A DNA stretch of 35,923 bases from a virus: positions 1 through 35,923 of IMG/VR virus record IMGVR_UViG_3300043570_001503. One strand, 5' to 3'. The notes beneath the pieces are model-generated. The model had not been told where the DNA came from. It did not search any database and saw nothing but the letters and a program-made list of their open reading frames with translations. This document shows, piece after piece, positions 24,877 to 28,954 of the stretch (within the stretch, counting starts at the first letter, position 1; each line of letters begins with the position of its first letter). The position numbers and the translations under genes were made by a program.

Positions 24877-24958
24877 TTTTTCTTACAGCCGACACAACCA
24901 GCATTACTAAGCCAGCAATCCCAAACCACCAAAAGAACATTACGTCTAGAAGTGTCAT
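24854..24958 (-). CDS. Tiny single-span membrane peptide (34 aa)
   Basis: The frame encodes MTLLDVMFFWWFGIAGLVML, then VVSAV and a charged tail RKNGDDRDK. This is one membrane helix with positive and acidic residues after it. The start overlaps the upstream stop by 4 bases (ATGA), AGGAAA lies upstream, and the end overlaps the next gene. Tight coupling and a clean transmembrane design support it as a real gene. Function unknown; it could be an anti-holin, a superinfection-exclusion peptide or a membrane anchor. Confidence 0.5.
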   Translation of the reverse strand: MTLLDVMFFWWFGIAGLVMLVVSAVRKNGDDRDK

Positions 24959-25473
24959 AGTGTTTCCTGAACCCACACGCTTTGCGCGTTGCTCAGCGGA
25001 AGCCAGTTGAAGCCGATGTCATCAAAAGCGTTGATAACTTCTTTCGGCATCGAAATGGTTTGTCCCCGCATGTAACGGTTCAGGGTTGTGGGTTGGATTT
25101 TGAACGTCTTACAAAAACGCTGAATCGAACCTGCCACCGTCCGAGCAAAAACCTCCATCGGGCTTTTCTCACCCAGCGAGGGGTAACTACTCGGGAACGT
25201 CTGCGTGTCAATGGCTTTCCTTTCCTCGGTACGCCACTTACTGTACGCGACAGTTAGGCTCTCCGTACCGTATTCGTCCAAAAGAATTGCTTTCGCATCA
25301 ACACCGCGATTAGCGCACTCATACCCTAGGGATACATTCTGTCGTTCGCTAACGCTGGTGTAAATCCCTGCCTCCAGATACACCATTGTCATCTTGCCAA
25401 AGTCGTTTCGTTCACAAAACGCTTTTTGCGTCAAGCCGCACAGCTCACGCAAACGGATGTAAGGGTTTTTCAT
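24955..25473 (-). CDS. Helix-turn-helix DNA-binding protein (172 aa)
   Basis: The N-terminus (IRLRELCGLTQKAFCERNDFGKMTMVYLEAGIY) is an XRE-type helix-turn-helix. A second possible one occurs near residues 125-150 (IQRFCKTFKIQPTTLNRYMRGQ), so the protein could contact two half-sites. It lies near the head of the leftward block and could regulate late transcription or take part in packaging. A long inverted repeat (25493-25550) occupies its leader. Role inferred. Confidence 0.6.
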   Translation of the reverse strand: MKNPYIRLRELCGLTQKAFCERNDFGKMTMVYLEAGIYTSVSERQNVSLGYECANRGVDAKAILLDEYGTESLTVAYSKWRTEERKAIDTQTFPSSYPSLGEKSPMEVFARTVAGSIQRFCKTFKIQPTTLNRYMRGQTISMPKEVINAFDDIGFNWLPLSNAQSVWVQETL

Positions 25474-25827: not shown

Positions 25828-26173
25828 ACTTCTCCTTTTTGTTGTGTCGAAAGGTGATGCGATAGTTAGCGTCAAACTGGCTACGCGAAACAACTACTAA
25901 AGAATCACCGTCATAGACAAGCCAATCCCCAACAGTCATCTCAAGCGGAAGCTCTGTCGGTTGAAACCACAGAACACCCATAGCCGAGTCAAACTTTAGA
26001 AGGCTGAACTGAGACTCATCCCCAAACGAATTAGGTCCTACCACCGTGAGATACATGCTCGAAAGCATGTCAAGGCTACTCTCACTCTCCAGCTGAATAG
26101 CCAGAACAGTGGCCCGTTTACGAACAACATGCAGCACGGGGTTAGCGTACCGTATCTTCTTGCTCGCCTTCAT
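25742..26173 (-). CDS. First gene of the leftward transcript, unknown (143 aa), probably leaderless
   Basis: It has a basic N-terminus (KASKKIRYANPVLHVVRKRATVLAIQLE), a beta-rich middle (LTVVGPNSFGDESQFSLLKFDS; MTVGDWLVYDGDSLVVVSRSQFD) and a basic helical end (RHNKKEKYGRERNSLKRKLERIRN). The middle resembles a small beta-barrel found in many actinophage proteins. TACGCT lies 7 bases before the ATG, leaving no room for a leader. A second copy of the same motif occurs inside codons 9-11, 6 bases before an in-frame GTG at 26137, so that GTG is an alternative start. Function not identified. Confidence 0.6.
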   Translation of the reverse strand: MKASKKIRYANPVLHVVRKRATVLAIQLESESSLDMLSSMYLTVVGPNSFGDESQFSLLKFDSAMGVLWFQPTELPLEMTVGDWLVYDGDSLVVVSRSQFDANYRITFRHNKKEKYGRERNSLKRKLERIRNELSDGYDWFIE

Positions 26174-26179
26174 AGTGGA

Positions 26180-26188
26180 TAGCGTACC
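26180..26188 (-). promoter_or_regulatory. Candidate leftward promoter -10 (GGTACGCTA)
   Basis: The minus strand reads TGGTACGCT directly before the 143-aa gene, fitting an extended -10 (TGn plus TANNNT). The ATG begins 7 bases after the hexamer, the arrangement expected for leaderless mRNA. No clear -35. The same 9-mer recurs at 26143-26151 (minus), 30802-30810 and 35302-35310. Confidence 0.5.
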
Positions 26189-26209
26189 ACGGGATTCTGA
26201 TTATTCGAT

Positions 26210-26241
26210 ACGAGATACCCCTAATAGTGGAAACAAGTGGA
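26210..26241 (+). promoter_or_regulatory. Divergent control region with GAGATACCCCTAAT box and first copy of the TGGAAACAAGTGGA element
   Basis: Leftward and rightward blocks separate in the gap 26174-26316. It holds the 14-base box GAGATACCCCTAAT (about 26212-26225), repeated near 28300, and directly after it TGGAAACAAGTGGA (26228-26241), copy A of the element found before four other cassettes. TACAAC lies 17 bases after TGGAAA, a possible -10. CCCC/GGGG (26279-26297) can pair in the leader. Confidence 0.55.
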
Positions 26242-26316
26242 CGATTCGTGTACAACATCATTCCAGACTAGAGGCATACCCCAGCACAAGGCAGGGGCTA
26301 CAAGGAAGGCAACACA

Positions 26317-26871
26317 ATGAACGAGCAAGACAATGTGACCCCATCAGGGGACACACCACCAGCAGAGCAGGAGACACCACCCCCAACGGTGGCGCCCTCC
26401 ATCGAGGATGGTTGGCAATACAACGCGCAGGGATTCCAGCGCTACTATAGCGGGAATGTAGTCCAGACCATGAGCGAACGCCAGTTTGCTGATTACACCA
26501 CTGCGCTCCAAGAAAGCGAGCGCAAACTAAAGTTCGAGCAGATTGATGGCTCGGATTCCCGCCTCACCGATTTCTGGGAGAAGGCTCAGGAATTGGCAGA
26601 CAACGCCAACCACTGTGAGGTGTTCGATACCATCGCTGAGGCTCTCGGAGGACCTAGCCGAGTCAAGGAATGGAGCGTCACCGTAACGATGATGGTTCAG
26701 GTTCCCGTTTCCTACCAGATGGACACCGAGGCGAAGAGTGCCGAGGAAGCCGAGGAGTGGGCAACCGACTACGTTCGCTCGATGAACGCCACCGACCTCG
26801 AAGATTCCGCCGATTGGTGGAGCGCCGAGATTGACACCTATTCAATGGAAGCCGAGGCCGAGGAAGCCTAA
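26317..26871 (+). CDS. First rightward gene, acidic unknown protein (184 aa)
   Basis: It has a disordered Pro/Thr/Glu N-terminus (GDTPPAEQETPPPTVAPS), a helical centre (MSERQFADYTTALQESERKL; LTDFWEKAQELADNANHCEVFDTIAEALGG) and a beta-alpha end (WSVTVTMMVQVPVSYQMDTEAKSAEEAEEWATDYV). The C-terminal part resembles the small strand-helix folds of many actinophage early proteins. AAGGCAACAC precedes the ATG. Strong acidity suggests a host-protein-binding role, possibly a DNA mimic, but this is inference. The gene stands alone: element copy A before it and a perfect hairpin 5 bases after its stop. Confidence 0.65.
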   Translation: MNEQDNVTPSGDTPPAEQETPPPTVAPSIEDGWQYNAQGFQRYYSGNVVQTMSERQFADYTTALQESERKLKFEQIDGSDSRLTDFWEKAQELADNANHCEVFDTIAEALGGPSRVKEWSVTVTMMVQVPVSYQMDTEAKSAEEAEEWATDYVRSMNATDLEDSADWWSAEIDTYSMEAEAEEA

Positions 26872-26876
26872 ACCCC

Positions 26877-26902
26877 GAGGCGGGGGAGCAATCCCCCGCC
26901 TC
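26877..26902 (+). terminator. Perfect 11-bp hairpin after the first rightward gene
   Basis: GAGGCGGGGGA pairs with TCCCCCGCCTC around a GCAA tetraloop. There is no T run, so it may be a strong pause, an RNA stabiliser or a factor-dependent terminator. Confidence 0.6.
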
Positions 26903-26936
26903 ACCATTACCCGCCACGACAGGAGAGGAGGCCGCG

Positions 26937-26996
26937 ATGAATCCCCACGCTGAATGTGAATGTGACAAACAACGATGCCCCCGCCACGATAACTAA
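26937..26996 (+). CDS. Micro-ORF, 19-aa Cys/His peptide between two hairpins
   Basis: AGGAGAGGAGG lies just before an ATG encoding MNPHAECECDKQRCPRHDN. The three Cys and two His in so short a peptide could hold a metal ion. The ribosome site is one of the strongest in the window. It lies between the hairpin at 26877 and the terminator at 27002, so it is on the end of the first cassette transcript. Could be a leader peptide or chance; only sequence context supports it. Confidence 0.35.
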   Translation: MNPHAECECDKQRCPRHDN

Positions 26997-27001
26997 AAAA
27001 T

Positions 27002-27036
27002 AAAATTGTCTCCCCTTCGGGGGAGGCAATTTTTTT
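27002..27036 (+). terminator. Intrinsic terminator, probably bidirectional
   Basis: The stem (CTCCCC TTCG GGGGAG, extended by AAATTG / CAATTT with one G-U pair) ends in seven T residues. A-rich sequence on the other side means it can also stop minus-strand transcription. Confidence 0.9.
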
Positions 27037-27045
27037 ATAAAAATA

Positions 27046-27083
27046 AACTGGAAACAAGTGGAGTTACTGGCTGTCTGCTCGCC
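27046..27083 (+). promoter_or_regulatory. Cassette element, copy B
   Basis: It contains TGGAAACAAGTGGA (27049-27062), then a 4-base insertion relative to copies C and D, and CTGTCTGCTCGCC. It begins 10 bases after a terminator and lies about 45 bases before the next start codon, the position of a promoter. Confidence 0.65.
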
Positions 27084-27097
27084 GTAGATTTGGAGAT

Positions 27098-27114
27098 GTC
27101 AGGAAAGCCCTGAC
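27098..27114 (+). promoter_or_regulatory. Leader stem-loop before the 35-aa gene
   Basis: GTCAGG / CCTGAC, 5-base loop, directly followed by GGAAAGG and then the ATG at 27127. It leaves the ribosome site single-stranded at its 3' foot. Confidence 0.5.
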
Positions 27115-27126
27115 GGAAAGGCAAGT

Positions 27127-27234
27127 ATGAACAACCCATTCGACGAAAGCGTCATCAACACTGACGCAATCGACAATTTGGATGATGAGACGGTAGACAC
27201 CATTCTCGCCATCCTCACCAAGGCGGGATACTGA
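27127..27234 (+). CDS. Small acidic peptide (35 aa)
   Basis: The frame encodes MNNPFDESVINTDAIDNLDD followed by ETVDTILAILTKAGY, mostly one amphipathic helix. GAAAGG precedes the ATG, and its TGA overlaps the next ATG (TGATG), so it is coupled to the 90-aa gene. Helical peptides of this type are common in early regions of actinophages. It may bind the 90-aa partner; function unknown. Confidence 0.55.
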   Translation: MNNPFDESVINTDAIDNLDDETVDTILAILTKAGY

Positions 27235-27506
27235 TGGAGACCATCGACATCACGCCTACCCGCGAGGAACACGCACGAATCATCGCCTACATCCTCGCAA
27301 GTCACATCGGTGGCTCCCCGTATTTCTTTGGGGACTATTGGAAACTGACGAACAACGAGGAACAGGCTCTGTTTCTGACTTGGGAGCACCTTGACAAGAT
27401 TGACGAGAGCCTGAAAGCCATCGGGCTTGGACTCTACGAGTTGCCCAAGACTCAGAAGAAGAAAATCATCCTCACCGCGTTCTCTCAAGCGATGGAGAAT
27501 GTTTGA
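27234..27506 (+). CDS. Unknown small protein (90 aa)
   Basis: Soluble and helical (TREEHARIIAYILASHIGGS; EEQALFLTWEHLDKIDESLKAIGL; TQKKKIILTAFSQAMENV). No motif recognised. It is the second gene of cassette B and depends on coupling with the 35-aa gene. A strong hairpin follows its stop at 13 bases. Composition and length fit a small host-modulating early protein. Confidence 0.65.
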   Translation: METIDITPTREEHARIIAYILASHIGGSPYFFGDYWKLTNNEEQALFLTWEHLDKIDESLKAIGLGLYELPKTQKKKIILTAFSQAMENV

Positions 27507-27518
27507 TTCCTCCAGATT

Positions 27519-27544
27519 GGGGCACCCCTTACGGGGGGTGCCCC
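27519..27544 (+). terminator. Perfect GC hairpin ending cassette B
   Basis: GGGGCACCCC (27519-27528) pairs with GGGGTGCCCC (27535-27544) over a 6-base loop. A short pyrimidine run (TCTC) follows. The stem is nearly identical to the one at 27790. Confidence 0.75.
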
Positions 27545-27579
27545 TCTCAATCGGAACTCGCTTCGCTCGTCCGTTATTC

Positions 27580-27613
27580 AACTGGAAACAAGTGGACCAA
27601 CTGTCTGCTCGCT
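27580..27613 (+). promoter_or_regulatory. Cassette element, copy C
   Basis: It contains TGGAAACAAGTGGA (27583-27596), then CCAACTGTCTGCTCGC. It lies 36 bases after a terminator and about 40 bases before the 43-aa gene. A small stem TGGT/ACCA (27624-27635) and AGAAAGG follow. Confidence 0.65.
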
Positions 27614-27651
27614 CCCACCAGACTGGTACTAACCAAACAGAAAGGTATCAA

Positions 27652-27783
27652 ATGTCCGCGACTGACCCACTGTTCGATGAGGACGACCTCAACGAGCCAG
27701 ATTACCGCTGTAAGCACGGCACTTTCATCGGCAACCCCTACGGCGCAGATTACCTGTGCGGTTGGTGCGAGTCGGGCGAATAA
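27652..27783 (+). CDS. Small zinc-ribbon-type protein (43 aa)
   Basis: An acidic start (MSATDPLFDEDDLNEPDY) leads into RCKHGTFIGNPYGADYLCGW and CESGE. The C-x-H / C-x-x-C arrangement is a compact zinc-binding site, and I recall very similar CKHG...CGWC proteins in many actinobacterial phages, with unknown function. AGAAAGG precedes the ATG at 27652. It is the only gene of its cassette and has its own element and terminator. Host origin is supported by this family; role unproven. Confidence 0.7.
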   Translation: MSATDPLFDEDDLNEPDYRCKHGTFIGNPYGADYLCGWCESGE

Positions 27784-27789
27784 CGCCTA

Positions 27790-27811
27790 GGGGCACCCTT
27801 CGGGGTGCCCC
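27790..27811 (+). terminator. Perfect GC hairpin ending cassette C
   Basis: GGGGCACCC, TTCG loop, GGGTGCCCC, 6 bases after the stop of the 43-aa gene; no T run. Confidence 0.75.
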
Positions 27812-27819
27812 AACCCCCT

Positions 27820-27853
27820 AACTGGAAACAAGTGGACTTACTGTCTGCTTGCT
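27820..27853 (+). promoter_or_regulatory. Cassette element, copy D
   Basis: It contains TGGAAACAAGTGGA (27823-27836), then CTTACTGTCTGCTTGC. Same spacing as copy C, so the conserved unit is about 33 bases. TACTGT inside it resembles a -10 but is not kept in copy C. Confidence 0.65.
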
Positions 27854-27871
27854 TCTGCCAGAATTTTAGTA

Positions 27872-27888
27872 GTCGGGATGTACCCGAC
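27872..27888 (+). promoter_or_regulatory. Leader stem-loop before the 97-aa gene
   Basis: GTCGGG / CCCGAC, 5-base loop, followed at once by AGAAAGG and the ATG at 27901. Same layout as at 27098. Confidence 0.55.
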
Positions 27889-27900
27889 AGAAAGGCAGTT

Positions 27901-28194
27901 ATGACTAATCCATTTCCCATCCGCCCTCACCGCTTCTCGGTGGTGATTGACCACTACTTCACGGACAGCACGGGGCACACCGAAGAGGTCGCCCTGTTCG
28001 TTCAGGACAGCGACGCTGAACGCTTCGCCAAGTGGCTCGCAAGTGATATCCACAACCAAGCGTCAATCAGTGACAGCGTGATTGTGTCGGTCTTTGAGAA
28101 CACGACTGGCAATGTTGTCTATGTTAGCCCCGAGATTTCGACTTTCACGGGGTTCCCGATGATGAATCTTCAGGGTCAGTACATCCAACCCTAA
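27901..28194 (+). CDS. Unknown beta-alpha protein (97 aa)
   Basis: The start at 27901 is chosen because AGAAAGG and the leader hairpin lie right before it; the open frame runs further upstream through the terminator and element. The protein shows FSVVIDHYFTDSTGHTEEVALFVQDSDAERFAKWLA, then SDSVIVSVFENTTGNVVYV, a strand-helix-strand fold similar in feel to other early proteins here. No motif known. It is the single gene of cassette D and is followed 5 bases later by a strong terminator. Confidence 0.65.
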   Translation: MTNPFPIRPHRFSVVIDHYFTDSTGHTEEVALFVQDSDAERFAKWLASDIHNQASISDSVIVSVFENTTGNVVYVSPEISTFTGFPMMNLQGQYIQP

Positions 28195-28198
28195 ATAT

Positions 28199-28240
28199 CA
28201 AAATGAGGAGCCCTCGCTTCGGCGGGGGTTTTTCATTTTG
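28199..28240 (+). terminator. Strong bidirectional terminator ending cassette D
   Basis: GCCCTCGC, TTCG loop, GCGGGGGT (two G-U pairs), extended by AAAATGA / TCATTTT with a T run on either strand. Confidence 0.9.
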
Positions 28241-28243
28241 TAA

Positions 28244-28278
28244 AACTGGAAACAAGATGGACTAACTGCCTGTTCGCG
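28244..28278 (+). promoter_or_regulatory. Cassette element, copy E, with no gene close by
   Basis: It contains TGGAAACAAGATGGA (one extra base against the core), then CTAACTGCCTGTTCGCG. The next start codon is about 515 bases away, so this copy would produce a long non-coding leader or RNA. Confidence 0.6.
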
Positions 28279-28372
28279 AAATTGTCGCGCGGGGAAAATA
28301 TGAGATACCCCTAATTCCGACTTTCTGCCCTCTGTCGCCTTGTTGTCGTCTCCATGTCTGATTGACCGACCT

Positions 28373-28428
28373 GAGCCCGTCCGCCCCGAGCCCGTCCCGT
28401 TAGGGGCGTGGGCTCGTGGGCAGGGCTC
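28373..28428 (+). ncRNA. Long nested GC-rich hairpin, possible structured RNA
   Basis: Four stacked stems nest in order: GAGCCC/GGGCTC, GCCC/GGGC, CGAGCCC/GGGCTCG and CCC/GGG with a GTTA loop. Small internal loops separate them. It lies about 95 bases downstream of copy E and upstream of two terminators, as a stable transcribed RNA would. Confidence 0.45.
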
Positions 28429-28439
28429 GCCCTAAATAC

Positions 28440-28510
28440 AGAAAGAGCGCTTCCCCCGTTCTTTCTCTTTATTGGGGGTTACGCTCCTTGATGGAGCGTA
28501 CCCCCAATAA
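28440..28510 (+). terminator. Two consecutive hairpins
   Basis: The first pairs AGAAAGAGC with its partner before CTTTCT (28440-28466) and leads into a T-rich run. The second pairs ATTGGGGG with CCCCCAAT and ACGCTCC with GGAGCGT around TTGAT (28469-28510) with one bulged T. They close the transcript expected from copy E. Confidence 0.65.
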
Positions 28511-28617
28511 TTACAGTTGTCAAATGAGAAAAGGGGTGAGGCTGTTTTTTCGTGCCACGACGCGGGTTTAGAGCCCTCGTGATAATTGACCAAAGAAATA
28601 GACCCCCGCTATCCCCG

Positions 28618-28653
28618 CGTGAGTCCGTTGAGGACTCACGATACAGAGTTTTT
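28618..28653 (+). terminator. Perfect hairpin followed by T residues
   Basis: CGTGAGTCC / GGACTCACG with a GTTGA loop; five T residues follow at 28649-28653. No gene ends nearby on the plus strand. Confidence 0.6.
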
Positions 28654-28714
28654 CGACCTCTCGCAACTCGACCCGCCGTTACCAAACTGTTATCAAAACT
28701 TTCGCATTTTGTGA

Positions 28715-28742
28715 TTGACAAGGTGAAAAGTGTAGTACGCTA
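28715..28742 (+). promoter_or_regulatory. Candidate promoter of the main early operon
   Basis: TTGACA (28715-28720) and TACGCT (28736-28741) are separated by 15 bases. The -35 is a perfect consensus, the spacer short. GTACGCTA matches the motif before other transcription units. The leader stem-loop and the 53-aa gene follow. Confidence 0.5.
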
Positions 28743-28749
28743 AATGTAG

Positions 28750-28772
28750 GAGGCAGGGACAGACCCCGCCTC
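28750..28772 (+). promoter_or_regulatory. Leader stem-loop before the 53-aa gene
   Basis: GAGGC / GCCTC encloses GGG / CCC around ACAGA. GAAAGGCAACAC and the ATG at 28793 follow after a short spacer. Confidence 0.5.
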
Positions 28773-28792
28773 ACGACACGAAAGGCAACACA

Positions 28793-28954
28793 ATGTTATT
28801 CACTATCACCACCACGACTAACGACGGGGCAACTGCTTCGTCCGAGGTAGTTAGTTCTGAACTCGCTGATTCAGTTTGGCAACTGACGCGCTATGTCACC
28901 GAAGGCGTTTTTACTTCGCTCGTTGTCACCCGCACCGAAGGGGGCGACAACTAA
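28793..28954 (+). CDS. Small Thr/Ser-rich protein (53 aa), first gene of the main early operon
   Basis: The frame encodes MLFTITTTTNDGATASSEVV, then SSELADSVWQLTRYVTEGVF and TSLVVTRTEGGDN. It is a strand-helix-strand unit like a shortened version of the 97-aa protein at 27901. GAAAGG precedes the ATG, and TAATG couples it to the next gene. Short early proteins of this style occur in many actinophages; function unknown. Confidence 0.6.
   Translation: MLFTITTTTNDGATASSEVVSSELADSVWQLTRYVTEGVFTSLVVTRTEGGDN

Follow-up and report, generated by a model that had tools for sequence, protein, structure and literature searches.

Repeated intergenic motifs of unclear function have been reported in the Microbacterium phage clusters EC, EF, EG, and EI (PMC7302621), where all copies of the EC motif share one orientation (PMC7302621), and Gordonia cluster DJ carries five copies of a 50-bp motif that contains a −10 (PMC9671010). 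The element family analyzed here is a further member of these reported actinobacteriophage motifs. It resembles them, as well as the SAS/ESAS of Mycobacterium cluster K, in being a short asymmetric motif with several copies per genome, located in upstream intergenic gaps and constant in its orientation relative to the genes. The published EC consensus (TAGaCTATaGGTgTaAgC; PMC7302621), the one with which we made the comparison, differs from the copies of our element. In distinction to the listed motifs, a direct repeat, the spacing to a −10, a leader hairpin, and a candidate regulator have been worked out in the present case, and there is a recurrent additional copy that precedes no gene.

Two better-known regulatory systems also bear comparison. 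The L5/TipsytheTRex repressor is a single polypeptide of ~ 180 aa whose two DNA-binding domains engage successive major grooves (PMC9283540). The repressor/stoperator system of cluster A mycobacteriophages is, by description, like the one presented here in that its sites are asymmetric and follow the direction of transcription, and in that one two-domain chain is the binder there and the candidate binder here. However, the cluster A system has > 20 sites genome-wide, belongs to a temperate phage, and uses a variant HTH as second domain, whereas here the sites are few and confined to the early region, no integrase was found, and both domains are predicted HTHs. In phage lambda, CII activates promoters at which TTGC-N6-TTGC flanks a poor −35. 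Our element shares with this arrangement the direct repeat of a 4-bp half-site with a 10-bp pitch, and in the window lineage it would cover the −35 region of what looks like a weak promoter if the predicted −10 is right. Its half-site, however, is TGGA, the candidate binder is a two-HTH protein, and other lineages have the site at a greater distance from the promoter.

Sequences and related records

The window, i.e., the whole stretch of DNA that was analyzed (35,923 nt, IMG/VR record IMGVR_UViG_3300043570_001503), comes from a lytic, actinobacterial virus with a P22-like portal, an SU10-like capsid, and an early helicase, whose nearest isolates are Microbacterium phage Shocker, Cellulosimicrobium phage DS1, and the Arthrobacter phages Jasmine and Adat. 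IMG/VR relatives were gathered via the helicase, the exact core of the element, or a relaxed pattern; the window's record is a fragment, and so are several of the relatives' records. The first scan for the exact core returned 65 contigs, most of them apparent chance matches within genes, and L045, L063, and L070 were pursued. No integrase and no lysogeny genes were found in the records searched, a tRNA search gave none, and no bacterial genomes were found that carry the helicase or the two-HTH protein.

The repeated element in the window

The repeated element described in the initial annotation proved to be real. Its core, TGGAAACAAGTGGA, occurs in four exact copies, and a fifth copy has one additional base; all five are on the + strand and occupy intergenic gaps of the early region (26228–28261), and 100 dinucleotide shuffles gave 0 exact matches. 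When three mismatches were allowed, five cores were found in the window against 3.8 expected, a count that is not significant alone; the significance of the core comes from the exact matches and the relatives. The core is a direct repeat, TGGA-N6-TGGA, with a 10-bp pitch, about one helical turn. The copies and the cassette ORFs predicted between them are as follows:

26228–26241, + strand: copy A, exact core, in the divergent gap
26317–26871, + strand: cassette A ORF, 184 aa
27049–27062, + strand: copy B, exact core, then second block GTTACTGGCTGTCTGCTCGC
27127–27506, + strand: cassette B ORFs, 35 aa (27127–27234) and 90 aa (27234–27506)
27583–27596, + strand: copy C, exact core
27652–27783, + strand: cassette C ORF, 43 aa
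27823–27836, + strand: copy D, exact core
27901–28194, + strand: cassette D ORF, 97 aa
28247–28261, + strand: copy E, TGGA-N7-TGGA, reading TGGAAACAAGATGGA with one inserted A, without a −10 and without a gene

The second block noted earlier in four copies was recovered as well: a ACTGTCTGCTCGC-like block is present in copies B–E and absent from copy A. The block common to B–E is ACTGnCTGCTTGC, A-type copies have a different one (TACAACATCA), and both are kept in relatives. A 4-nt insertion or shift in the block of copy B was rejected, as the alignment is free of gaps once B is read as ACTGGCTGTCTGCTCGC. The claim that all copies except E stand shortly before a gene also held, the start codons lying 75, 64, 55, and 64 nt after the cores of A, B, C, and D, respectively. 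The statement that each copy follows a terminator or sits in the divergent gap stood in part: A is in the divergent gap and G+C-rich hairpins precede B–E, but those before C and D are putative terminators, since they have no T-run. Among relatives, the cassette ORFs that lie between the elements vary greatly and are poorly conserved. The product of cassette C is a small CxxC-type protein, and a possible 19-codon, Cys-containing micro-ORF with a good SD (MNPHAECECDKQRCPRHDN, 26937–26996, + strand) is situated between cassette A and copy B.

Promoter geometry

Contrary to the earlier impression that no consistent −10 is present at proper spacing, a yAGAnT −10-like hexamer begins exactly 22 nt past the core in copies A–D, and in two of these units a leader hairpin is placed at the expected transcription start:

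26264–26269, + strand: −10-like CAGACT of copy A, offset 22
27085–27090, + strand: −10-like TAGATT of copy B, offset 22
27098–27114, + strand: leader hairpin of B, GTCAGG-AAAGC-CCTGAC
27619–27624, + strand: −10-like CAGACT of copy C, offset 22
27859–27864, + strand: −10-like CAGAAT of copy D, offset 22
27872–27888, + strand: leader hairpin of D, GTCGGG-ATGTA-CCCGAC

All nine B/C/D-type copies of the window, G003, G012, and G009 have xAxxxT at 22–23 nt past the core, which none of 20,000 shuffles reached, a figure that overstates independence because the nine copies are kin. In a wider set (18 copies from nine genomes) xAxxxT was found at 22–24 nt in 15/18. Four of the nine copies have a leader hairpin that begins 8 nt downstream of the hexamer, where a transcript would be expected to start, and shortly before an AGAAAGG-type SD. 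If the hexamer, as the predicted −10, occupies −12 to −7, the element of the window lineage would be centred at ~ −41.5, with its site at ~ −48 to −35. No TTGACA/TATAAT-type promoter was found in 26100–28900, and the element promoters of the window have no −35 match and a mostly poor first −10 base, whereas TACGCT with an extended TG is seen in other promoters of this phage group. Judged by their letters, the −10-like hexamers of the window are of the host sigma-70/sigma-A kind.

In other lineages the distance is larger, with an extended −10 at 38–41 nt in G004, G005, G002, and G013 and at 65–66 nt in G007, and with hairpins near the expected start; these offsets are weaker evidence because they were set by eye with the hairpins in view. 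Across lineages, the distance from the element to the likely −10 ranges from 22 to 66 nt. Some element promoters outside the window lineage look strong unaided (e.g., TTGACA-16-TACGCT in L173), and start sites are ambiguous in several genomes because each has two candidate −10s.

The initial annotation had proposed a phage-specific promoter class that depends on an own RNA polymerase, an own sigma factor, or an activator. The fixed −10 distance favours the activator-dependent branch of this proposal. Nothing supports an own sigma factor: the −10s are of the host sigma type, and no Sigma70 r2 or r4 match over the cut-off (PF04545, PF04542) was found in the records searched, several of which are fragments. 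No phage RNA polymerase was found either (no PF00940 match over the cut-off), in a search run without a positive control on the window fragment and on records that are partly fragments as well.

The element in related phages

A scan of related phages, suggested by the initial annotation, located copies before early genes in relatives. The generalised form WGGANNCAARTGGA gave 34 matches in 13/19 related records, Microbacterium phage Shocker included (not a prevalence, because some records were themselves found by the element), against 0 matches for the reversed-pattern control in the same 19 records. These strict matches number one to four in each record that has any, lie in the early region, and are confined to one strand per record, the orientation always following early transcription. 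The relatives' own versions (TGGAATCAAATGGA, AGGACTCAAGTGGA, AGGAAACAAGTGGA, and others) stand after terminator-like hairpins and before early genes, and copies are alike within a genome and unlike between genomes (0.375 vs 1.81 mismatches, permutation p 1e−4). The copies of Shocker sit inside its 484-bp terminal repeat, and the −10 of this phage is not evident from its sequence.

The element was not seen among the de novo repeats of Jasmine, Adat, DS1, and ctEqG8. In the Jasmine group, the intergenic gap of the early region, without the TGGA element, is dense in TATCC/GGATA repeats (L110 43714–43850 in Adat; L109 45221–45370 in Jasmine), which are perhaps the group's own control or origin sites.

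A candidate regulator

The best candidate binder of the element, according to its predicted fold and its distribution, is a two-HTH protein whose gene heads the divergent virion operon:

24955–25473, − strand: candidate binder, 172-aa protein with two predicted HTH domains (helices 16–34 and 117–135), AlphaFold pLDDT 95

Its first domain alone has a weak Pfam match (HTH_31). The protein is present, in Shocker as gp10, in every element-bearing record whose sequence covers that gene region, and a search that used it as query retrieved eight loci that were either new or had been examined earlier without the element being seen. In all six of these loci with upstream sequence, the element is present in its usual or in a diverged or half-degenerate state, and on the early strand only; the diverged forms were identified post hoc with a relaxed pattern. 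Adat (in one domain) and DS1, both without the element, have proteins that weakly resemble the two-HTH protein, and a GurgleFerb protein matches it structurally (TM 0.60); together, these similarities suggest that the two-HTH gene is older than the element. Element distances and protein distances were not correlated in a Mantel test, and co-evolution is thus not supported. The L5 repressor (gp71) was not among the 50 PDB fold matches listed for the protein.

A screen limited to ORFs of the window, G003, Shocker, and G002 revealed no other recognised regulator that is better distributed. WhiB was rejected as binder because the records with a WhiB gene (L108, L109, L111, and G010) all lack an element match, as if a different regulator served there; the early region of G010 is mostly off-contig, and this record has a half-degenerate A-type site.

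Copy E and flanking boxes

Copy E has counterparts in relatives that also have neither a −10 nor a gene, with the N7 spacing in four genomes. E-type copies are usually followed by an ACCCCTA-type box, and the same box adjoins copy A. The features around copies A and E are:

26174–26190, − strand: putative leftward virion-operon promoter, extended −10 GTGGTACGCTA (TACGCT), with the ATG at 26173 7 nt on
26212–26225, no strand assigned: GAGATACCCCTAAT box directly before copy A, exact pair with 28302–28315
28302–28315, no strand assigned: second GAGATACCCCTAAT box, after copy E, exact pair with 26212–26225

For the GAGATACCCCTAAT pair, 0.09 is expected at up to two mismatches, and the box recurs beside the A-type copies of relatives. 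It may be the site of a second regulator because, read leftward, it is upstream of the leftward promoter. The first gene of the leftward virion operon is probably leaderless, given this short distance to the ATG. GTACGCTA is over-represented in the window (7 vs 0.59 expected), with some copies inside genes.

The ~ 500-nt non-coding region after copy E (28262–28792) has a long hairpin, TATTGGGGGTTACGCTCC-TTGAT-GGAGCGTACCCCCAATA, and a GACACGCCC-like box. Counterparts of the hairpin, with the pairing kept and the sequence different, follow copy E in many relatives (L114–L122), and the region is a possible replication origin.

Discussion

In the interpretation that we favour, the element acts as an upstream site of early promoters that depend on a host sigma factor and are under phage control. 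In its full form, the elements would be cis-regulatory sites of a phage-specific early promoter class to which the two-HTH protein recruits host RNA polymerase, an explanation to which we give slightly less than an even chance. The phage two-HTH chain (24955–25473, − strand) would read both TGGA half-sites in successive major grooves and, once bound, would bring host RNA polymerase to weak promoters from a class II position in the window lineage and from more distant positions elsewhere. Under this model, each terminator-element-promoter-leader-ORF unit could be a self-contained cassette under one phage switch. In favour of this explanation are the constant −10 spacing with its leader hairpins, the restriction of the 34 matches to one strand per record with none for the reversed pattern, the likeness of copies within genomes, the lack of a TTGACA/TATAAT-type promoter in 26100–28900 and of a sigma factor in the records searched, and the occurrence of the two-HTH protein with the element. 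The weakest steps are the sign of the effect (activation, not repression) and the identity of the binder. Activation is somewhat likelier because the element promoters of the window have no −35 match and mostly a poor first −10 base, set against the TACGCT with TG of the group, and because activators are known to act from −41.5 and from upstream positions such as those of the other lineages. Several observations count against this explanation: copy E has no −10 or gene, here and in relatives, and falls outside the reading as a promoter site; the 22 to 66 nt range between element and −10 would not be allowed by a single contact geometry; some element promoters of other lineages look strong without help; a regulator gene at the head of the virion operon is more natural for a repressor; and element and protein distances are uncorrelated, with weak protein relatives in the element-less Adat and DS1. 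A broader proposal, which we hold tentatively, is that one two-HTH chain reads the helical-turn direct repeat and switches interchangeable early cassettes on or off from ~ −41 to −85, the extra copy beside the possible origin linking this switch to replication.

The main rival to activation, by analogy, would be L5-like repression by a two-domain, orientation-sensitive protein, whereby the two-HTH protein would repress at the elements and either silence the early cassettes during expression of the virion operon or stop read-through between cassettes. As with the L5/TipsytheTRex repressor and its stoperators (PMC9283540, PMC6550527), the sites are asymmetric, point one way, and vary from genome to genome, and the candidate protein has two domains and a comparable size; in addition, the two-HTH gene heads the divergent virion operon, and copy E would simply be a site without a promoter. 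We nevertheless judge this unlikely on balance, as the sites of other lineages, centred at ~ −58 to −85, cannot block RNA polymerase by simple occlusion, the sites are few and all in the early region, lysogeny genes were not found, and the element promoters of the window look weak rather than strong.

It is improbable, in our estimate, that a host transcription factor or another, unrecognised phage protein binds the element and acts on the early promoters. The lack of co-variation between element and candidate protein would fit such a factor, as would a fragmentary record and a partial regulator screen, but a site that is genome-specific within one phage group suits a phage factor, and the screen gave no recognised regulator with a better distribution.

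Still less probable is a role as module boundaries or replication-linked repeats, in which the elements would serve recombination between the variable cassettes or an origin, with the promoters as mere neighbours. The poor conservation of the cassette ORFs and the position of copy E next to a long non-coding region, whose long hairpin is conserved in many relatives, are in line with it; fixed −10 spacing and strict orientation with transcription, however, are needed for neither role. The cassette-moving recombination sites considered in the initial annotation leave that spacing unexplained too, and recombination is possible as a side effect, because the ORFs between the elements are so variable.

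An RNA-level element (leader structure, antitermination, or attenuation signal) is very improbable, for although the elements lie behind terminators and read-through would include them in a transcript, an Rfam search gave no match and the element is outside the cassette's own transcript if the predicted start is right.

Conclusions

Repeated intergenic motifs are catalogued for several actinobacteriophage clusters without an assigned function, and the element family described here offers a measurable promoter geometry. With this geometry, relatives with differing spacings, a named candidate regulator, and the isolate Shocker on a culturable host, M. paraoxydans, the function of such a motif is directly testable.
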